Shown here: positions 34,045 through 44,289 of the stretch, piece by piece
Layout of the letters: the number at the start of each line of letters is the position of its first letter
Numbering within the stretch: position 1 is the first letter of the stretch
Source of the DNA: Pseudomonadota bacterium
Lineage (GTDB): Bacteria > Desulfobacterota > Desulfovibrionia > Desulfovibrionales > Desulfovibrionaceae
Assembly: GCA_018816865.1 (NCBI GenBank)
Contig: JAHIUW010000011.1
Coordinates: 1-64,000 of the forward strand
Direction of reading: 5' to 3'
DNA: 64,000 nt
Program-made: the position numbers and the translations under genes
The notes under the pieces: generated by a model
Seen by the model: only the letters and a program-made list of their open reading frames with translations
The model's database searches: none
Told to the model about the DNA's origin: nothing

Positions 34045-35418
34045 CTAGCGCTCGTGCATGGCCTGGTCAACCGATCCGATGAACGGGTCGAGCAGGTATT
34101 CCAGCACCGTGCGGCTGCCGGTGTGGATGTAGACCATGACCAGCATCCCCGGGATCAGCTTGTACTCGAAATCGCCGTGGGCAAAGGAATCGCCCTGAGT
34201 CTCGATGCGCACCGAATAGTAGGTTGCCCCTTCGGGGGTGGAGAAGGTATCCGGGCTGACCTGGGCCACGGTGCCTTCCAGCTTCCCGAAGCGCGCCGCG
34301 TCACTGGAGGCCAGCTTGATAACGGCCCGCTGGCCCGACTGCACGTAACCGATGTCGCCAATGGGCAGGTGGGCTTCCACCACCAGGCGGTCCGAGGAGG
34401 GCACCACGTCCACGATGGTTTGGCCGGCCTGGACCACGCCACCGATGGTCACATAATGCAGCTTCTTGACCACACCCTCCACCGGGGAACGGATAATGGT
34501 CCGGTTCAGGCTGTCGGCATACTTGCGCATGCGATGCGTGTATTCCTCAAACTCGCGCCGGGCCTTGCGCAAGTCCTGCTGGGCCTGCTCGCTGAATTCC
34601 GTCTCCGTGCTATCCAGCTTCTGTCGGGCTTCGGCCAGGGACGAGATAACGCGCGGTAACGCGGCCTTGTCCTGATCGATCTTGTTCAGCAGGTTAGACT
34701 GTTCGCGCAGATACCCCAGGTGCTGAAATTCCGTGGTCAGGTTGTCCTTGAGCAGCTCTGCGGACAGACTGACCTGCTCCCTGATAATCTTCAGGCTGTT
34801 GCTGTTGTTGCGCAGTCTGGCCTGGATCTCGATAATGTCCTGCTGGCGCTGGATCACGCTTTCCTTCAAGGCCGAAAGCTCGCCGCGGATGCGCCGCAGC
34901 TTGGTCTTGAACAACTCCTGGGTCTGATCCACCAAGTCCGGATGCCGCTCCTGAAACCCCTCAGGGAAAACCAGCTCATCCAGGCCCTCGGCCAAGGCGA
35001 TATGCATGGCGACTTCGGCGGTCAAGGAGACGATGCGCACCTCTAATTCCTCGACGCTGGAGCCCTGAAAGATCTCCTCAAGGACCACCAACGGCTGCCC
35101 GGCCTTGACCAAATCCCCCTCGCGCACCTTGATTTCGCTGATGATCCCACCTTCCAGATGCTGGACGCTCTTGACCTTGGAGCTGGGGATGACCTCCCCC
35201 GAGGCGGTGCTGACCACGTCGAGCCTGCCCACTGCCGCCCAGACCAAGAACAGGAACATCAGCGCAGCCGTCAGCCACACGAACAGACGGGCCGTACGCG
35301 TGGCCCCGCCCTCGCCAGTTCCAGACACAAGGCCCACGATGGTCTGCTCGAATCTGCCCAGAAGGTCCCGGACCAGCAGGCCGGTCTGGCCCTTGGTGTC
35401 AGCCTTGTCGTCAGGCAT
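34045..35418 (-). CDS. HlyD-family periplasmic adaptor of a type I secretion system
   Basis: The 457-residue protein has a cytoplasmic N-terminal tail, one membrane span (about 48-68, LFVWLTAALMFLFLVWAAVG), a biotinyl-lipoyl-like half (GEVIPSSKVKSVQHLEGGIISEIKVREGDLVKAGQPLVVLE), a long coiled-coil hairpin (about 135-310), then the returning lipoyl half and beta barrel (IRSPVEGVVKKLHYVTIGGVVQAGQTIVDVVPS). This is the HlyD/PrtE/LapC adaptor type that bridges the inner-membrane ABC protein to TolC. The start is chosen at MPDDKAD, which overlaps the upstream ABC gene by 8 bp. Confidence 0.92.
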   Translation of the reverse strand: MPDDKADTKGQTGLLVRDLLGRFEQTIVGLVSGTGEGGATRTARLFVWLTAALMFLFLVWAAVGRLDVVSTASGEVIPSSKVKSVQHLEGGIISEIKVREGDLVKAGQPLVVLEEIFQGSSVEELEVRIVSLTAEVAMHIALAEGLDELVFPEGFQERHPDLVDQTQELFKTKLRRIRGELSALKESVIQRQQDIIEIQARLRNNSNSLKIIREQVSLSAELLKDNLTTEFQHLGYLREQSNLLNKIDQDKAALPRVISSLAEARQKLDSTETEFSEQAQQDLRKARREFEEYTHRMRKYADSLNRTIIRSPVEGVVKKLHYVTIGGVVQAGQTIVDVVPSSDRLVVEAHLPIGDIGYVQSGQRAVIKLASSDAARFGKLEGTVAQVSPDTFSTPEGATYYSVRIETQGDSFAHGDFEYKLIPGMLVMVYIHTGSRTVLEYLLDPFIGSVDQAMHER

Positions 35419-37099
35419 TGTTGCTCTCCATTGCGGCAAGCCCGGGGAGCGGCGCTAGCCTCGTGATGGTCGGGACCGGCTTCACGTTCAGGTCCACGAT
35501 GAAATGGGGATGTTCAACCACATCCGGGGCATGGGACAACACGATGACCGTGCGCCCCTGTTCGGCCAAGCTGCGCATCAGAACGCGAGCGGCCTCTGCA
35601 CCTTCGGCGTCCAGGCCTTCCAGGGGTTCGTCAAGGATCGCCAGCTGTCCACCAGTGACCAGGGCCCGGGCCATGGCGATGCGCCTGCGCACACCCAGCG
35701 GCAGATTGCGTCCCAACTCGGACATCGGGGCTTCCAATCCCTGCCGCGAATGATCCAGCCAGCGCGACAGCCCGGCACGAGAGACGGCCTCAGCCAGGAC
35801 GGCTTCATCTGCCTCGGGGCAGGCCATCAGGATGTTCTCTCGAATCGACCCCGCCAGAAACTCCGGTTCCTGGGGCATATAGACCAACTGCCTGCGCCAC
35901 CAGGCCGGGGCCAGTTGGCGGACGGTGATGCCGTCGGCCAGGACCTCGCCGCGCAGGGGATCCAGCAACCCGACCAGCAACCGGGCCATAGTAGTCTTGC
36001 CCGTTCCATTGGCCCCGTGAATCACGATCACACTTCCCGGGGCAAGGGGCAAGGACAGGGACTCGAACAACGGCCCCGTGCCCCCCGGATAGGCGAAGGC
36101 TACGTCCTTCAACTCCAGCCGTCCGCTGTAGTGGCGCAGAGCCGTGCCGTTCTGCGGCTCCAGGGGCAGTTTGAAGAACTCGCGCAGGATGCCCAACCCC
36201 TGCTCGGCGCGGGACAGCTGGGACACAGCGCCCACCAGCATCGAGGCCTGCCTGATGCCACGGGAGACCAGGATATTGGCGGCAATGAGCGCCGCAAAGG
36301 ACATCTCGCCCAGTACGCACTGCTTGGCTCCCCAGGCGTAAATGAAGACACGCACCAGAACGGCCAGGGTCTGATTGGCCCCGACACCGCGGGCCCTGAG
36401 CCCCACCAGACGTTCATGCACGTCCATCAGCGCCCCTGCGTACCCCCGCCATACCCCGAGCAGGTATCCGCCAGCGCCATAGGCCCGCACCGTGTCCGCC
36501 CCGGCCAAGGCCAGGGACGAAACTCCACGCACGGACACTGCGGCTCGTTGGGTTTCCAGAGCCAGCCTGCGATTGACGGACAAGGAAGACAAGCCAAGGG
36601 CCACGGTCAGCGCCATGCCGACCAGGCCAATCCAGGCAAGTCCGGAACTCAGAAAAAACGTGGCCACGATGAACAACAGTGAGAACGGGGCGTCGAGCAT
36701 CGCGCAGACAGTCCCGGGTGCAAAGGCCGACTGCACGGTCTGCAGATGGCCCACCATCTCCTGTTTGGCCCCTTCGGGCACCCGGAGCAGGGCCATGGAC
36801 CGGGCGCGGGTCAGCACCTCGAACAGGGTCTGCGAGATCTCCCGATCCCGTTCAATGGACAACAGACCAGCCATGAGCGTCCTGGCCTGGCGGAAGCCCA
36901 CCTGCATCAAGAGGGCTATCAGCATGCCCACGGTCAAGGTGATCAGAGTCCCGTCGAACCCGGAGTCCACGTACTGGCCCAGGATGAGCATCACGAACAA
37001 TGGCGAGGCAAAAGACAAGAGATTGACGAAGAACGTGGCCCCCAGCAGTTGGACCATGATCCAGGGCTTGGCACGCAACCGGTGCAGCAGCTCCTTCAT
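35411..37099 (-). CDS. Type I secretion half-ABC transporter (second of two)
   Basis: The 562-residue protein has a PrtD-type membrane domain (about 15-290, five or six helices, no N-terminal C39 peptidase domain) and an ATPase domain (about 325-540). Walker A is HGANGTGKTT, the Q loop MPQEPEF, Walker B LAILDEPLEGLD with the catalytic Glu, and the H loop LSHAPD. The signature that is normally LSGGQ reads LPLGVRRR. It overlaps its partner gene by ATGA and the HlyD gene by 8 bp, so the two half-transporters probably form a heterodimer exporting an unknown polypeptide. Confidence 0.9.
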   Translation of the reverse strand: MKELLHRLRAKPWIMVQLLGATFFVNLLSFASPLFVMLILGQYVDSGFDGTLITLTVGMLIALLMQVGFRQARTLMAGLLSIERDREISQTLFEVLTRARSMALLRVPEGAKQEMVGHLQTVQSAFAPGTVCAMLDAPFSLLFIVATFFLSSGLAWIGLVGMALTVALGLSSLSVNRRLALETQRAAVSVRGVSSLALAGADTVRAYGAGGYLLGVWRGYAGALMDVHERLVGLRARGVGANQTLAVLVRVFIYAWGAKQCVLGEMSFAALIAANILVSRGIRQASMLVGAVSQLSRAEQGLGILREFFKLPLEPQNGTALRHYSGRLELKDVAFAYPGGTGPLFESLSLPLAPGSVIVIHGANGTGKTTMARLLVGLLDPLRGEVLADGITVRQLAPAWWRRQLVYMPQEPEFLAGSIRENILMACPEADEAVLAEAVSRAGLSRWLDHSRQGLEAPMSELGRNLPLGVRRRIAMARALVTGGQLAILDEPLEGLDAEGAEAARVLMRSLAEQGRTVIVLSHAPDVVEHPHFIVDLNVKPVPTITRLAPLPGLAAMESNNA

Positions 37100-38778
37100 C
37101 GTCCCTCCGCCGCGCCGGCTTGCGCGCGTCCGCCAGGACGCAAGGTATGTCCCTCTCCGATTCCCATATCCAGAATCAGATCAGCACCCTTGATGATGGC
37201 AGGATCGTGGCTGATCACAACGATGGTCGCCCCGGCCAAGGCCAGGTCGTTCATGGACGTGTAGACCATGGCCGTGCCTTCGGCATCCAGCCCCTCGGTG
37301 GGCTCGTCCAGCAAGAGCAGTCGACCCCCCCCACAGAGAGCCCGGGCCAGTGCCATGCGCTTGCGGATGCCCACCGGCAAAGTTCGTCCGGCATCCATCA
37401 TCGGGGTCTCCAGACCCTTCTCGGAAAGATCCAGGAACCGCGTCAGCCCCGAGGCCTGGACGATCCGCCTGAGCTCGCTGTCCTTGATCTGCGGGTTGCC
37501 AACGGTGAGATTGTCGCGATAGCTGCCCGCCAGGAAAAAAGGTTCCTGGGGAACGTAGGCCAATTGTCGCCGCCACCACTGCGGATCCAGGTCTCGCAGG
37601 TCATGACCATCGGCCAGGACCCGCCCGGCCACGGGGCTGACCAGACCCGCCATCAGCCGGATCAACGTCGACTTGCCGGAACCATTGGCTCCCTGAATGG
37701 CCAGGACCTTCCCCGAAACGAGCTGCAGATTGAGCCCCTGAAAGATCTCGCCACCGCCGGGGAAGGCGTAGGACAGGCCCTCGAGTTCCAACCCCTGGGC
37801 ATAGGCCTCGGGGACCAGTCCACCGTGGGCTTCGCGCGGCAGACCCGTGAGTTCGCCGATGCGTTGCGAGGCTTCGCGGGCCTGTTCGAGTTGGGAATAG
37901 GCATTGGCACAGGCCGTGGCCTTCTGGATGGCATAGGACCCCAGAATGCTGGCGCCGATGAGCGCCGCCACACTCAGCTGCCCCTCCACGGCCAGCTTGG
38001 CGCCCACCGAATAGATGGCCACACGCACGAAGACCCCCGCCCCAAGGGTCACGCTCTGGGACAGGCCGCGCGTATCCTCAAGGACGTTGCGTAAGACGGC
38101 GATCCGTCCGGTCTGAGTGGCCCACAGGCTGCGGCAATGCTCGGCTCCACCGAACACGCGCACCGTATCCCCGGCGCGGATGGCATTGCCCACCAGGGAA
38201 TGATTGCGACCGGATTCGTCCGCCAGATCGATGCTCCCCCGGCGGGCCAGATGCACGGAAGCCAAGCCGGCACCAAGGGACACGACGATGCCCACCAGGA
38301 CGATCACCGACAGCAGGGGGCTCAAGAAGAAAACGGCGGCGGTGAACATCAGGGCGAAGGGGGCGTCCAGCAGGGCCCCGAGATTCAGGGCGTCGTAAGC
38401 GGATTGCGAGGTCTGGAAGTCGGTCACCACTCCCCGGACCCGTTCCGGAGGCAGGGATTGCAGGGCCGTGGTATCGGAGTCCACCAGGGCCGCGATCAGG
38501 TCCTCGCTGAGGGTCTTGTCGAAATCACGGCTGACGCCTGCGGCCAGGATGTCCCGCGCACGGCACACGCCCCACTGCAGGGCCAGGGCCACCAGGGTTC
38601 CCGCCGTCAGGATGATCAGGGTACCGTCAAAGCCATAGGCGATGTAACGCCGGAGCACGATCATCACAAAAATCGTATCGGACAGGGCCAACACGTTGTT
38701 GCAGACCGTGGCCAGGGCGAGCTCGGCGGTCAGCAGAGGATTGCTCTTCAGGCGTACGATCAGTTCTTCCATGGCCAT
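37096..38778 (-). CDS. Type I secretion half-ABC transporter (first of two)
   Basis: This 560-residue protein is built like its neighbour: a membrane domain (about 15-290), then an ATPase with Walker A QGANGSGKST, Q loop VPQEPFF, Walker B LLLLDEPTEGLD and H loop ISHDPA. The signature position reads LPVGIRKR instead of LSGGQ. ATG 38778 (MAMEEL) or 38772 is used as start; the longer frame would run through a terminator hairpin and lacks homology. A paralogue follows with a 4-bp overlap. Together with HlyD and the separately transcribed TolC it makes a full three-part exporter. No RTX protein or other substrate gene is in the window. Confidence 0.9.
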   Translation of the reverse strand: MAMEELIVRLKSNPLLTAELALATVCNNVLALSDTIFVMIVLRRYIAYGFDGTLIILTAGTLVALALQWGVCRARDILAAGVSRDFDKTLSEDLIAALVDSDTTALQSLPPERVRGVVTDFQTSQSAYDALNLGALLDAPFALMFTAAVFFLSPLLSVIVLVGIVVSLGAGLASVHLARRGSIDLADESGRNHSLVGNAIRAGDTVRVFGGAEHCRSLWATQTGRIAVLRNVLEDTRGLSQSVTLGAGVFVRVAIYSVGAKLAVEGQLSVAALIGASILGSYAIQKATACANAYSQLEQAREASQRIGELTGLPREAHGGLVPEAYAQGLELEGLSYAFPGGGEIFQGLNLQLVSGKVLAIQGANGSGKSTLIRLMAGLVSPVAGRVLADGHDLRDLDPQWWRRQLAYVPQEPFFLAGSYRDNLTVGNPQIKDSELRRIVQASGLTRFLDLSEKGLETPMMDAGRTLPVGIRKRMALARALCGGGRLLLLDEPTEGLDAEGTAMVYTSMNDLALAGATIVVISHDPAIIKGADLILDMGIGEGHTLRPGGRAQAGAAEGR

Positions 38779-38821
38779 TGATCCGCAGACGATCCTCTTC
38801 AACCGGGCACGGGTGCCGAAT

Positions 38822-38862
38822 GAAAAACCGGCAGGTCCGCCATATGCGGACCCGCCGGGAGT
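38822..38862 (-). terminator. Terminator between the TolC gene and the ABC genes
   Basis: CCGGCaGGTCCGC (38828-38840) pairs with GCGGACCcGCCGG (38846-38858), with one mismatch. Read leftward the hairpin is followed by TTTTTCATTC, a classic terminator. It separates the outer-membrane gene from the ABC-HlyD-glycosyltransferase genes and may reduce rather than block read-through. Confidence 0.85.
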
Positions 38863-38897
38863 GTTCGCAGATTCGCGGGAGCTCAACAATACATCGT

Positions 38898-40199
38898 CTA
38901 TTGGGTCGGGAACAGGTCGAGTTCAAGGTGTCCCATGACGTGCAGCAGCGTATAAGCCTGGACCATCTGGTCCACTTCCGCGGTGATGGCCCCGCTACGT
39001 GCGGAGTTCAGGTTCACCTCGGCGGACAGCACATCCAGCAGGGAACGGTTGCCAAGCTTGCGCTCCTTGCGGGCCAACTCCAGGAACTCCTCGGAGATCA
39101 CGGCCTGGTTGCGGAACCACTCGGCCTTGGCGCGGGCGGTAATCAGGTTCTGCCAGGACACGCGCACCTGTTCCTCGATGGTCCGTTCCACATCCAGCAC
39201 GGTGTTCACCGCAGCGGAACGGTCCTTGCGAGAGGCCGCCAGGGTGGCGGCATCGCCGCCGCCATTGTATATATTGTAATTGAATTCAACACCCAGGCGC
39301 TGCTCCCACTTGACGACATTCCGCTGTCCGCCGTCATTTTCCTTGCGCCAGTACTCGGCAAAGGCATTGAAATGGGGGTAGAATCTCGCCAAGGCAACAT
39401 CCACGGAGCCATCGGCCGCTGCGACCATGCTTTTGGAAATGAGCAAGCTGGGGTTCTCCTGGAAAGAGACGTTGACAGCCTCGTCCAAGGTCCCGGGGAT
39501 CTTTGTGTAGGGGACATCGGGATAGCTGAACGAAGCGATCAGGGCGTCATCTGGGGAGAAACCGAACACGGCCTTGAACCGGCTGCGGGTATTCTCCAGC
39601 TGGCCCTCGTTGACCACGCGCAGGGCCGAGACCTGGGCCAGTTGGGCCTTGGCCTGCAGCACGTCGGAAGACAGACCGGCACCCTTCTTCACGAGGGATT
39701 CCTCGATGCCCGTCTGACGCTTGATGTTTTCTTCGGACTGCAAGGCAAAATCAAGGGTCCGAATCGCCTTCATGATCTGCAGATAGGCGCTGACACCCTC
39801 CAACAGCAGACCCTGGCGGGTGAAAGTCCTGGAATATTCGGCCTGCTTATACAGCCCCTCGCTGGTCTTGATACCGCCATCGGTCAACCCGGCGTCCCAG
39901 ATATTCTGGATGCCACGGAACTTCTGGATATTACGGTTCAGGGACACGGAGGCAGAGGTGGTATAATCCGTTTCCTCACGGGCCACGTCACCGCTGAAAT
40001 TGAGTTTGGGATACCAAGCCGTCTTCGAGGCCTGATACCGTTGTTGACCGGCCCCCTCGGTGTCCTGGGCGGCCTTCAAGCGCTCATGCTGAGTCAGCAT
40101 GTCAGGCAGCAGTTCGCCAAGGGTCTTGGCGTGGGCCTGCGCGCCGGTCAAGGCAAGGAGCGCCACACAAACGACGGCAGCAATATAGATACGTTTCAA
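38898..40199 (-). CDS. TolC-family outer-membrane export channel
   Basis: The 433-residue protein has a signal peptide (about 1-24, ending AHA-K) and two repeated halves with long helices and short beta strands, the TolC architecture (about 200 residues each). It starts at TTG 40199, well placed after GGGGGGAG. Features include ASKTAWYPKLNFSGD, SEGLYKQAEYSRT, VLQAKAQLAQVSAL, and in the second half ARFYPHFNAFAEYW and LSAEVNLNSARSG. It should trimerise in the outer membrane as the exit duct for the type I system downstream. Confidence 0.9.
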   Translation of the reverse strand: MKRIYIAAVVCVALLALTGAQAHAKTLGELLPDMLTQHERLKAAQDTEGAGQQRYQASKTAWYPKLNFSGDVAREETDYTTSASVSLNRNIQKFRGIQNIWDAGLTDGGIKTSEGLYKQAEYSRTFTRQGLLLEGVSAYLQIMKAIRTLDFALQSEENIKRQTGIEESLVKKGAGLSSDVLQAKAQLAQVSALRVVNEGQLENTRSRFKAVFGFSPDDALIASFSYPDVPYTKIPGTLDEAVNVSFQENPSLLISKSMVAAADGSVDVALARFYPHFNAFAEYWRKENDGGQRNVVKWEQRLGVEFNYNIYNGGGDAATLAASRKDRSAAVNTVLDVERTIEEQVRVSWQNLITARAKAEWFRNQAVISEEFLELARKERKLGNRSLLDVLSAEVNLNSARSGAITAEVDQMVQAYTLLHVMGHLELDLFPTQ

Positions 40200-40364: not shown

Positions 40365-41324
40365 TCAGCTTCCGGAGGACAGCTTCTGCACGGCCGAAAA
40401 AGCCGCGCCCCACAGACCGGATTCCTCGCATCGATTCAGACGAACGGGGATTCCGGCCAACAGTTTACCATGCGTCTCCGAAAAGTGAAATTCTGTTCCA
40501 AAAGCCCCGTGGGTCACAAGTCCCGGTGTCTTGGCCGCCACCCCGCCGCTGACCACCACTCCACCCAAAGCCAACAGGTCGAGGGCCATGTGGCGACAGG
40601 CCCGACCATAGAACCGGGCCGCCCATTCCAGGACCAGAGGTTGGTTCCCCAACGCCGCGGCGACCTCGGCCGGGGTGAGTTCCTCGCCGGCATGAAAGGC
40701 ATGCAGCGCGGACAGCCCCCTCCCGGAGACGACCATGTCCCCGGTGATCTGCCGACATCCGGTGCGCTGCATCAGGAACCCCTGGAACTCGAATTCCTCG
40801 CTCCCGGAAAACGGAAACAGACTGTGCCCGCCCTCCGTGGACAGGGCCAGCCAACCTCCCCGCCCATCCGGCGCAAGGGCCGCCTTGCCGAGCCCCGTGC
40901 CCGCACCGATGACACCCACCACGCCCTGCTCGTCTGCTTGTCCGGGCAGCAGCTCCAGGGCCCCATCCATGGCCGCCGTACGCACGGCAAGGGCCTGGGC
41001 CGCGAAGTCGTTGATCAGGATGAAACGGGAAAAGCCAAAGTCCTCCCGCGCACTCAAAAGGTCGACTTTCCAGGGGATGTTCGGTGGGTTGCAACGCACC
41101 CCGCCAGTCACCGGACCGGCCACTGCCAGGGCCACGATGTCGGCGTCGGCAGGACGCAGCGGAAGACCGCTGGCTTCGAGGTTAGTCAACAACTGTCGAA
41201 AACTCCCGGCCTCGCGGGTGGGCAACCAAACCGACGGCCCCATCTCCAGGCGACCTTCGTGGCCCTCGAACACGGCGAAACGACTGTTGGTGCCCCCGAT
41301 ATCGGCAGCCAGAATCCGGGCCAT
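40365..41324 (-). CDS. glk: Glucokinase
   Basis: The 319-residue enzyme belongs to the bacterial glucokinase (ROK-distinct Glk) family: ATP-binding ILAADIGGTNSRFAVF at the start, PNIPWKVD, the catalytic-base segment FILINDFAAQALAV, GAGTGLGKAAL and STEGGHSLFPF with the conserved Glu-Gly-Gly-His. VVVSGGVAAK closes the fold. It phosphorylates glucose to glucose-6-phosphate in the cytoplasm. GGGAGAG precedes the ATG. It is transcribed in the same direction as the neighbouring binding-protein gene, 57 bases apart. Confidence 0.92.
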   Translation of the reverse strand: MARILAADIGGTNSRFAVFEGHEGRLEMGPSVWLPTREAGSFRQLLTNLEASGLPLRPADADIVALAVAGPVTGGVRCNPPNIPWKVDLLSAREDFGFSRFILINDFAAQALAVRTAAMDGALELLPGQADEQGVVGVIGAGTGLGKAALAPDGRGGWLALSTEGGHSLFPFSGSEEFEFQGFLMQRTGCRQITGDMVVSGRGLSALHAFHAGEELTPAEVAAALGNQPLVLEWAARFYGRACRHMALDLLALGGVVVSGGVAAKTPGLVTHGAFGTEFHFSETHGKLLAGIPVRLNRCEESGLWGAAFSAVQKLSSGS

Positions 41325-41381: not shown

Positions 41382-42536
41382 TCAGGACTTGGGCATGCCA
41401 GGCATCCCGTCCGGGAACGGCAGCAAGCTGGGCAGCGACCAGGCCTCGTACTCGCCCCGGTTGGGCTCCAGCAACACGAGCACCCCGCGCCCATACTCCC
41501 ACAGCAACTGCCGCTCGACGGCCGTGGGTGGCAGCACCAGCCCGGTGCTGGAAACCTTCACGGCGGCGTAGATCTGCAATTGCCCGGCTGACACGGCCTT
41601 GGCCAGGGCCACTTGCAGAGCCCCGGTCCCCATCCCCGCCGCAGCGTTCTCGATGTTCGCCCCTGTAAAGATCGTGCCCGAGCGGGTGATGACGGCGGCC
41701 GCCTCGGATATTCCGCTGTGCGGGGCATAGGCCAGGGGCAGGACCTTCTTGGCCTCGGCCACCAGACGGGCCATGTCCGCGGTGCTCATCTCAGGCACGA
41801 ACCACTTGCGGTAGATGCGGTCGTACTCGCCGTTAGCCATCAGCCGCTTCAAGCCCCTGTCCACCAGATCCCGCAGACCAGTCTCCCCCTTGTACAAGGC
41901 ATAGTAGACAGGCACGGAGCGAACCGTCGAGCCGATCACCTCAAGATTCTTCATATTCTTGCGGGCCATGATATCACGGGCGATCTTGTCCGCACCGAAA
42001 TACGCCACGGCGTCACCGGCCTGAACGGCCCCCAGGGCCGCTTCGCCACTATCGAAGAGCAGGATCTTCACGCCCCCGAACTCCTGCAGCAGACGCTGAT
42101 ACAGCGAATCGCGGATGGTGGCCACGGTCTGCCCCCTGATCTCGCCAATATGAGTCAGATTCGAGATGCGATTGGCGAAGAATTTCAAATCCAGGGTCAT
42201 GGTCGGGGTTTCCGGAAAGATAAACACCTTTTCCCGAAGCGGGGTCTTGGTCATGCCCGCCGCCACCTGAATCACGCCGCCGGACAATTCCGCCTGGGCA
42301 CGTTCCCAGTCGTTCATGGGCATGTAGTCGATGCCCAGGCCGGAACCCTCGAGGACAGCCGTGAACAGCTCAACCTCAAATCCCGTAGGCTCCTGGTTAC
42401 GGACATAGGAAAACGGGATGAACTTGCGGTCAAAGGCGAAAGCAACCTTGCGGTCGGCGGCCCGGGCCGCTGCTGGAGCAAGCACGGCCACAGCCAGCAC
42501 AATGGCGGCGACGGCGGCAGAAATCGTACGTCTCAT
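41382..42536 (-). CDS. Exported solute-binding protein fused to a zinc-less cytidine-deaminase-like domain
   Basis: The 384-residue protein starts with a signal peptide (about 1-27, AARAAD) followed by a type 3 amino-acid-type solute-binding domain (about 30-250; FDRKFIPFSYVRNQEPTGFEVELF at the start, YDRIYRKWF at the end). Residues about 255-372 then align along their whole length with cytidine deaminase: AYAPHSG, GTIFTGANIEN, ALAKAVSAG. The ribose-binding Asn and Glu are kept (N294, E296), but the three zinc cysteines are Gly305, Thr338 and Glu341, and the catalytic Glu is Leu307. The domain cannot be a standard deaminase and may bind a nucleoside in the periplasm. No permease gene is adjacent. 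Confidence 0.85.
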   Translation of the reverse strand: MRRTISAAVAAIVLAVAVLAPAAARAADRKVAFAFDRKFIPFSYVRNQEPTGFEVELFTAVLEGSGLGIDYMPMNDWERAQAELSGGVIQVAAGMTKTPLREKVFIFPETPTMTLDLKFFANRISNLTHIGEIRGQTVATIRDSLYQRLLQEFGGVKILLFDSGEAALGAVQAGDAVAYFGADKIARDIMARKNMKNLEVIGSTVRSVPVYYALYKGETGLRDLVDRGLKRLMANGEYDRIYRKWFVPEMSTADMARLVAEAKKVLPLAYAPHSGISEAAAVITRSGTIFTGANIENAAAGMGTGALQVALAKAVSAGQLQIYAAVKVSSTGLVLPPTAVERQLLWEYGRGVLVLLEPNRGEYEAWSLPSLLPFPDGMPGMPKS

Positions 42537-42936
42537 GGTCGTTCTCCGTGAGGCATGGTTGGCGGCTGATCAGGCATTCTCTGCATCCTTTCGGCCAACT
42601 CACCGAATATCTTTACAATCACGGGCACACTAAGCGGGCCGTCTCAGGCATGGAAACTCTGCTGATTCTAGCAGGCATCCCGGTCCACGTGAAGCCCACC
42701 AATCAGGCCCTGCCCTCGCGGCCATTGCCGCGGCAGCCAATGGCGGGTAGAATGATGAACAGCATCAACCGCAAGCACCAAGGGTCCACCCCCGACACCG
42801 CTCTCAAGTCTCCAGGCCTCAGACAGAGAGCAGATTCCCAGGCAGGGAGCAGATCCAAGGCAGCCACCGGGAATGTCCCCTGCCTCCACGCTTGGACACG
42901 GCCTGCGATGCCATTCCACAGCCAGCAAGGACCCGC
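42537..42936. other. Divergent intergenic region between the solute-binding fusion and MATE genes
   Basis: About 400 bases should hold promoters for both directions. Open frames here are short and lack ribosome binding sites. No unambiguous promoter, operator or terminator is picked out. Confidence 0.4.
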
Positions 42937-44289
42937 GTGAAGATCGACAACAGCCTGACCACCTGCACCATCCCCGAGTGCATCCGCAAGATTGCTATCC
43001 CCGCCAGCGTCGGATTCTTCTTTCACACCCTGTTCAACGTGGTGGACACCTACTACGCCGGACTCATCGGGACCACGGCCCAGGCCGCCCTGTCCCTGGC
43101 CTTTCCGGTGTTCTTCGTGGTCATCTCCGTGGGCAGCGGGGTGCAGGTGGGGACCACGGCCCTCATCGGCGCGGCCCTGGGCTCAGGCGACAACCGTGCT
43201 GCAGGCGAATACGCCCGTCAGGGACTGGGCTTCGGCCTGACGGTCACCGTGCTGCTGACCCTGGTCGGCCTTGTGGGCGCACGCCCGCTGTTCAGCATCC
43301 TGGGAGCCCAAGGGGACTACCTCGCAGCCTGCCTGCAATACATGCTGCCCATCTTCGCCCTGTGCATCTTTCCCCTGCTGATCTACGTATTCAACGCCGT
43401 GCTCCAATCCCAGGGCGACACCAAAAGCTTCCGCAACGTGCTCATGGCCTCCTCGGCGGCCAACATCGCGCTGGACCCCTGGTTCATCTACGGCGGCTGG
43501 GGGCTGCCCGCCATGGGCATCACGGGCATTGCCGTGGCCACCATCCTCTGCCAAGCCGGAGGGACATTCTATTTGGGCCTCAGAGCCGTGCGCACCGGGA
43601 TCTATTCCGTGCCCGGCTCGGGCGGCTGGCGGCCGCGAGCCACGCCGTTCAGGGACCTCGCCCGCCAGAGCCTGCCCGCCGGATTCAACTACGTGACCAT
43701 GGGCCTGGGCATCTTCATCATCACTTATTTCGTATCCCGATTTGGGCAGACCGTGGTCGCGGCCTACGGCGTGGCCACCAGGGTGGAGCAGATCGTGCTG
43801 ATGCCCACCATCGGCCTGAACATCGCCACCCTGACCCTGACGGCCCAGAACCATGGCGCTGGCAAGCTGGATCGGGTGCACGAGCTGATGCGCAAATCCC
43901 TGACCTACGGCGCCTGGCTGATGGGTGGCGGCGGAATCCTCGTCTTCGCCACCGCCGAGCCGCTGATGCGGGCCTTCACCGCCGACCCCCTGGTCCAGGC
44001 CGAAGGTGTCCGCTTCCTGCGCATCATGGCTTTTCTGCTGTACGCCTACGTGGTGCTGTTCGTGAGCGTGGCCATGCTCCAAGGTCTGAAACGGCCCATG
44101 TTCGCCCTGTGGATCGGCCTGTGGCGGCAGATCGCCGCCCCCGTGGCCCTGTTCTGGGTGCTGACCGGACTATTGGACTTCGGGGTGGCCGCCATCTGGT
44201 GGAGCATCGTGGCCATCAACTCCAGCGCCGCCCTCTACTCCTGGACCTACGCGCGGCGTGTGCTGTCGAGGTTGACGCCCAGGCCCTGA
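42937..44289 (+). CDS. MATE-family multidrug/metabolite exporter
   Basis: The protein has 12 membrane helices in two bundles of six, the MATE layout, with IPASVGFFFHTLFNVVDTYYAGLIGT in the first half and SLPAGFNYVTMGLGIFIITYFVSRFG in the second. GTG 42937 follows CAAGGA and gives 450 residues starting MKIDNSLTTCTIPECIRKIAIP; an upstream ATG at 42892 in the same frame lacks a ribosome binding site. MATE proteins expel cationic drugs or metabolites using sodium or proton gradients. The substrate cannot be predicted. Confidence 0.88.
   Translation: MKIDNSLTTCTIPECIRKIAIPASVGFFFHTLFNVVDTYYAGLIGTTAQAALSLAFPVFFVVISVGSGVQVGTTALIGAALGSGDNRAAGEYARQGLGFGLTVTVLLTLVGLVGARPLFSILGAQGDYLAACLQYMLPIFALCIFPLLIYVFNAVLQSQGDTKSFRNVLMASSAANIALDPWFIYGGWGLPAMGITGIAVATILCQAGGTFYLGLRAVRTGIYSVPGSGGWRPRATPFRDLARQSLPAGFNYVTMGLGIFIITYFVSRFGQTVVAAYGVATRVEQIVLMPTIGLNIATLTLTAQNHGAGKLDRVHELMRKSLTYGAWLMGGGGILVFATAEPLMRAFTADPLVQAEGVRFLRIMAFLLYAYVVLFVSVAMLQGLKRPMFALWIGLWRQIAAPVALFWVLTGLLDFGVAAIWWSIVAINSSAALYSWTYARRVLSRLTPRP

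Follow-up and report, generated by a model that had tools for sequence, protein, structure and literature searches.

A putative secreted solute-binding protein joined to a cytidine deaminase domain without catalytic residues, recurrent in Desulfovibrionaceae

What use could an exported solute-binding protein (SBP) make of a cytidine deaminase (CDA) domain from which the zinc ligands and the catalytic glutamate are missing? The question is posed by a gene from a bacterium of the family Desulfovibrionaceae (assembly GCA_018816865.1, contig JAHIUW010000011.1), located in a stretch of 64,000 nucleotides that was analysed as a whole and is referred to here as the window. The gene and its parts are as follows, with residues of the window protein numbered from its first amino acid and positions of active CDAs numbered as in Bacillus subtilis Cdd.

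41382..42536, minus strand: the fusion gene, encoding a predicted signal peptide, an SBP_bac_3 domain and a catalytically dead CDA domain, 384 amino acids (open reading frame, profile matches and model)
42459..42536, minus strand: putative signal peptide, approximately residues 1-26, without a lipobox, its end placed from the sequence alone
41799..42449, minus strand: type 3 solute-binding domain, residues 30-246 (Pfam and fold matches)
41418..41774, minus strand: CDA domain without catalytic residues, residues 255-373 (profile matches and model)
41649..41657, minus strand: N294-I295-E296, corresponding to Asn42-x-Glu44 of B. subtilis Cdd (alignment)
41616..41624, minus strand: G305-A306-L307, at the place of zinc ligand C53 and catalytic E55 of active CDAs (alignment)
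41514..41525, minus strand: T338-A339-V340-E341, at the place of zinc ligands C86 and C89 of active CDAs (alignment)

Both halves of the protein are recognized by independent profile collections. In Pfam, SBP_bac_3 (PF00497) covers residues 33-246 with an E-value of 5.3e-22 (78.4 bits against a cut-off of 26.4) and dCMP_cyt_deam_2 covers residues 255-319 (34.7 bits against a cut-off of 25). The NCBIfam CDA models span residues 252-375, with E-values of 7.2e-17 and 1.9e-16 that fall below the equivalog cut-offs (60.5 against 113.65 bits in the case of TIGR01354), and the chains of B. subtilis Cdd among the PDB sequences match residues 257-373 with E-values of 4.8e-14 to 4.5e-13. An initial annotation, made from the DNA letters and their translations, had described a signal peptide, a type 3 solute-binding domain and a C-terminal half resembling CDA from end to end; the first two are borne out by the Pfam match, the structural model and a signal-like N-terminus, the last by the NCBIfam span and the fold match given below. 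Its residue mapping is likewise correct, as our alignment places C53, E55, C86 and C89 of B. subtilis Cdd at G305, L307, T338 and E341, and N42 and E44 at N294 and E296. A search of the first 45 residues in the 32 rows of one alignment set (A2) yielded no lipobox pattern, in a set where at least two rows lack the N-terminus and four do not begin at Met. In the window's genome the fusion is the sole match to CDA families. Taken together, the sequence comparisons and the models confirm the protein as a predicted secreted pseudo-deaminase joined to a type 3 solute-binding domain.

The AlphaFold model of the full-length protein has a mean pLDDT of 91.0, and its SBP half aligns with the GlnPQ domains and glutamine-binding proteins at Z-scores of about 24-26. 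Since the matches listed for the full-length model in the fold search were SBPs and SBP-derived sensors only, a separate model of the C-terminal half was built and used for a second search. The model of these 133 residues (pLDDT 90.8) superimposes on the tetrameric CDA 6kw6 with a Z-score of 20.6 and an rmsd of 1.6 over 118 residues at 33% identity, and all 50 Foldseek matches listed for it are CDAs and blasticidin-S deaminases. The initial annotation had staked its reading on a CDA fold in this half, and that fold is present. Compared with the B. subtilis type of Cdd (TIGR01354), the window protein retains the whole fold, sharing 24-35% of its residues with the listed deaminases of known structure, and the YAPYS, GAA, NxENA and RQ motifs are recognizable. 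It differs in lacking the zinc ligands and the catalytic glutamate, in having lost most of the substrate contacts, and in the placement of the domain behind a putatively secreted SBP, with a score below the TIGR01354 equivalog cut-off.

How widely this architecture occurs was examined in several genome samples. Among 288 genomes of Desulfovibrionaceae, 87 contain a CDA-like match, which frame length and score divide into 47 fusions, from 16 of the 44 genera, and 40 other CDAs, from 6 of these genera. All of the 47 sequences except that of genome G163 were examined, and the 11 other CDAs that were examined all have C53 and E55. Carriers of the fusion include Desulfovibrio cuneatus and Halodesulfovibrio species. 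In a smaller survey the fusion was present in 14 of 59 genomes, the window's own included, all of the same family. A free Cdd and the fusion were found together in none of the 87 genomes, each of which has one match, in a count where second copies could be missed and where, in many genomes, only 14 first-look candidates were scored. The lack of any genus containing both types has a probability of about 0.05 by chance according to a hand calculation, from which no conclusion is drawn. An annotation or frameshift artefact was considered and rejected, as the fusion is a single open frame in 45 of the 47 fusion genomes of the family and is cut at contig ends in the other two (G014, where it is split over two contigs, and G166). 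Because the same frame, the same domain order and the same residue losses recur in 50 distinct sequences, the fusion is well beyond what chance would produce.

Outside the family, a sample of 395 genomes from the phylum gave a CDA match in 32 genomes and a single out-of-family fusion, designated L178, in the single-contig genome G326; among the other 30 matches no open frame exceeds 321 residues, and the 10 of them examined are ordinary Cdds. In the order (21 genomes) and the class (63 genomes) of G326, no other match with a frame longer than 210 residues was found. A further scan, of contigs, was seeded with SBP-half patterns of members already known and may have overlooked more distant fusions. 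The second out-of-family copy, L049, comes from a contig assigned by binning to a Syntrophaceae bacterium, and its reading frame is split in two. The third (L068:1551-2699) comes from a contig in the bin of a Methanosarcinales archaeon, where the flanking genes look archaeal, an assignment that rests on the bin name and our reading of those genes; transfer from bacteria is possible. The initial annotation had proposed listing the proteins that combine SBP_bac_3 with a CDA-like domain, and the list shows a conserved architecture, comprising the 47 family genomes and these three copies.

To follow the catalytic site through these proteins, 50 distinct fusion CDA domains were placed in one alignment with B. 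subtilis Cdd and 22 free sequences of the Cdd type. C53 and E55 are each missing from all 50 fusions and each present in 23 of 23 non-fusion Cdd-type sequences; C86 and C89 are each missing from all 49 fusions covered there and each present in all 19 covered non-fusion sequences. An active secreted deaminase was rejected on these grounds, the catalytic residues being gone in every fusion compared. What has replaced them could be taken for a zinc site converted to a new use, in binding or in catalysis, with C89 changed to Asp or Glu (47 of 49 fusions) and C53 to Ser or Thr (45 of 50). We regard this as very unlikely, however: the position of Glu55 is occupied by Leu, Ile, Met or Val in 46 of the 50 fusions, the window protein itself carries Gly at position 53, and structural repair of an emptied metal site fits the pattern as well. 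A zinc-less half with the CDA fold inside a working protein has a precedent in the dimeric CDA of the Escherichia coli type. In that cytoplasmic protein the dead half is paired with an active CDA half, whereas the window fusion has no active CDA half and is apparently secreted.

Trees were built from 49 fusions and 18 Cdds, with six short or doubtful rows of the 73 omitted (F_L073, C_L170, C_L160, C_L161, C_L162 and C_L165). In the first tree the fusions are on one side of a branch with support of 100/99, and the three out-of-family copies are nearest to the free Cdds. In a tree without 17 active-site columns, a branch supported at 99/98 again sets the fusions apart, and the three out-of-family copies form a group (99/96). 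The other 46 fusions require two changes on this tree and come together as one group in only 28% of the bootstrap trees, so the trees leave more than one candidate for the first-branching lineage of the fusions. The trees fit a single origin of the fusion, a result that does not by itself rule one in.

Selection on the two halves was compared in pairs of fusion genes. The NG86 estimates of dN/dS in six pairs are 0.03-0.25 for the CDA part and 0.03-0.11 for the SBP part, with the CDA part higher in all six, at dS values that are near or beyond saturation in several pairs. For the part of the pairs that have YN00 values, the order of the two halves is reversed in one (L006/L176), and in a seventh pair, for which NG86 is undefined, YN00 gives 0.07 for the CDA part and 0.03 for the SBP part. 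These purifying values indicate that the dead CDA half is maintained, under a constraint somewhat weaker than that on the SBP half.

The SBP half retains much of the pocket expected for its family, with W77 in 30 of 30 sequences, F39 in 28 of 30 (Tyr in the other two), R101 in 29 of 30 and Ser or Thr at position 144 in 30 of 30. By homology, we take R101 to be the arginine for the ligand carboxylate and position 182, mapped to GlnBP via profile alignments, to be that of the acid that binds the ligand amino group (Asp157 of GlnBP). No acidic residue stands at position 182 in any of the 32 rows, which have Pro (21), Ala (4), Leu (2), Thr, Met, Ser and Gln (1 each) and, in L068, Gly. From these residues we infer a ligand that would be carboxylated and other than a plain amino acid. 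The fusion thus shares with the GlnPQ substrate-binding domains, ArtJ, AncQR and GlnBP the two-lobe fold, the aromatic positions and the carboxylate arginine, and is distinguished from them by the missing amino-group acid, the lack of a neighbouring permease among the matches listed and the extra C-terminal domain.

These features bear on another reading of the protein, namely that it is an ordinary component of a polar amino-acid importer with a dead CDA tail as an inert passenger. The resemblance of the SBP half to amino-acid binding proteins speaks for it, as does the occurrence of polar amino-acid permeases (TIGR01726) somewhere in 15 of 16 fusion genomes, so that a partner encoded elsewhere could serve. 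Nevertheless, among the matches listed for these 16 genomes, none of the TIGR01726 permeases adjoins the fusion; the shortest distances are about 10, 13 and 17 kb (in G079, G001 and G027, respectively), and in G034 the contig ends 2.7 kb from the fusion, which leaves that side barely visible. The whole single-contig genome G326 contains no TIGR01726 match, for a profile that as a control matches in 11 of 14 named genomes; it has seven SBP_bac_3 matches and nine PF00528 matches, and the distance from the fusion to the closest PF00528 match is about 0.9 Mb. On the window's contig, the nearest PF00528 match is about 17 kb away. With the usual acid for the amino group absent as well and the CDA tail under purifying selection, we consider the importer reading improbable.

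A role beyond import would have parallels among orphan or signalling SBPs, in which, to our knowledge, no CDA domain has been reported. The profile of one such group, TIGR04262 (GrrP), matches 3 of 32 members weakly. Parts of PMC11113362 deal with SBPs as signals for sensor kinases, and the likeness between these proteins and the fusion is that of periplasmic SBPs considered beyond plain import.

What, then, could the CDA half contribute? The initial annotation, noting that the ribose-contacting Asn-x-Glu is retained, had suggested that it could bind nucleosides and that the two halves might form a two-ligand sensor or receptor. In the docked model of an active CDA described in an excerpt of PMC9897663, the nucleoside is contacted by Asn42, Glu44 and Tyr24, together with Tyr48 of another subunit, and a Phe equivalent to F125 is in the substrate pocket. 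The same paper names the VGA and NXEN motifs as proposed supports of the CDA tetramer, so conservation of NxEN needs no bound nucleoside. The conservation of N294/E296, which the initial annotation had suggested examining, holds for the glutamate, retained in 48 of 50 fusions (the exceptions being L158, where a gap makes the alignment uncertain, and L159), and much less for Asn42, retained in 31 of 50. Of the other contacts, F24 is kept in 1 of 50 fusions (with Tyr in three more), Y48 in 2 of 50 and F125 in 4 of 49, and the window protein has Ile, Ala and Asp at these positions. The suggestion of nucleoside binding is weakened accordingly, and for the window protein itself such binding appears doubtful, judging from its residues.

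The out-of-family copies present a different picture. L178 retains F24, N42, E44, Y48 and F125 without the catalytic set; L068 retains N42, E44, Y48 and F125, with Tyr at position 24; and L049 retains N42, E44 and F125, with Ile at 24 and Leu at 48. A two-ligand receptor, with one ligand held by the SBP and a pyrimidine nucleoside, or a compound related to it, held by the zinc-less CDA so that two signals are integrated, fits L178 and L068 best, given that these positions contact the docked nucleoside in the excerpted model of PMC9897663. The widely retained Glu44 is in its favour too, and the loss of the contacts at 24, 48 and 125 in the window protein and in nearly all fusions, with the incomplete retention of Asn42, is against it; for the fusions in general we think it rather unlikely. 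Equally tentative is the view that the CDA of such a receptor became a nucleoside-sensing domain through loss of zinc and catalysis with retention of its pocket, as seen in L178 and L068, and that in the Desulfovibrionaceae, the window protein among them, the pocket was either adapted to a different ligand or left with a part in assembly.

The reading we favour, with about even confidence, is that of a stand-alone periplasmic receptor in which the dead CDA is kept most likely as an oligomerization scaffold. The N-terminal Venus-flytrap domain would bind a small, probably carboxylated ligand; the former CDA of the tetrameric type, stripped of the residues for zinc binding and catalysis, would persist as a folded module that most likely assembles the receptor into dimers or tetramers; and the loaded receptor would act in trans on a partner, either a membrane sensor or a transporter. 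We infer the oligomerization role, the carboxylate ligand and the action in trans. The scaffold is preferred because the tetramer motifs are largely kept (G27 in 47 of 50 fusions, A28 in 49 and N45 in 39, in addition to Glu44) and the substrate contacts are mostly lost; P20 (49 of 50), Y18 (48 of 50), E95 (45 of 50) and P122 (46 of 50) are retained as well. Against it stand V26, kept in only 14 of 50 fusions, the modest figure for Asn42, the two copies that are without Glu44 or misaligned there, the loss of YAPYS in these two and in L157, and the higher NG86 dN/dS of the CDA part in all six pairs. The tetramer motifs also overlap the ribose contacts, so their conservation would not separate the two roles, and an assembly role appears to fit it at least as well as nucleoside binding does. 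The AlphaFold models are of single chains, and the oligomer is a proposal.

L158 (read as the reverse complement) and L159 have the most degenerate CDA halves, with the YAPYS and Glu44 motifs altered and the fusion frame open; the YAPYS motif is also lost in L157. The series from the pocket-complete L178 to L158 and L159 makes the losses testable.

Both parts of the protein belong to well-known families. The initial annotation knew of no described system with this architecture, and our literature searches, which were narrow, likewise found no description of an SBP combined with a CDA. The fusion represents a widespread pseudoenzyme, in which a normally cytoplasmic salvage enzyme has apparently been exported, has lost its catalytic function and has been coupled to a ligand receptor. 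As a tetrameric scaffold, the dead CDA would constitute an unusual route to multivalent binding proteins; if nucleosides are still bound in some lineages, the protein would be an extracellular nucleoside sensor of a kind not found in the literature searched.

The genes next to the fusion in the window are the following.

40365..41324, minus strand: glucokinase gene (PF02685), 57 bases past the fusion stop codon (Pfam)
42892..44289, plus strand: gene of a MATE-family transporter, the divergent neighbour, given as context only

Across 44 loci, some with flanks cut by a contig end, glucokinase directly follows the fusion, on its strand, in 10, of which the window is one; the two genes are 2 to 111 bases apart or overlap slightly, depending on the start codon chosen. 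CinA (PF02464) is upstream and divergent, directly in 19 of the 44 loci and as the second gene in four more (L036, L037 and L039 being among these 23). This recurrent local order may reflect simple inheritance, and the neighbours gave no clear function. Downstream of glucokinase, the window contains two genes that, as read from their sequences, are ABC exporter-like and one that is outer-membrane efflux-like (35414-40199), an order shared by L034, L157 and L158. A different partner is joined to a CDA-like domain in genome G156, where a frame of 416 residues (L170:1212-2459) has an N-terminal part that is presumably GrpB-like, ahead of a domain that keeps C53, E55, C86 and C89.
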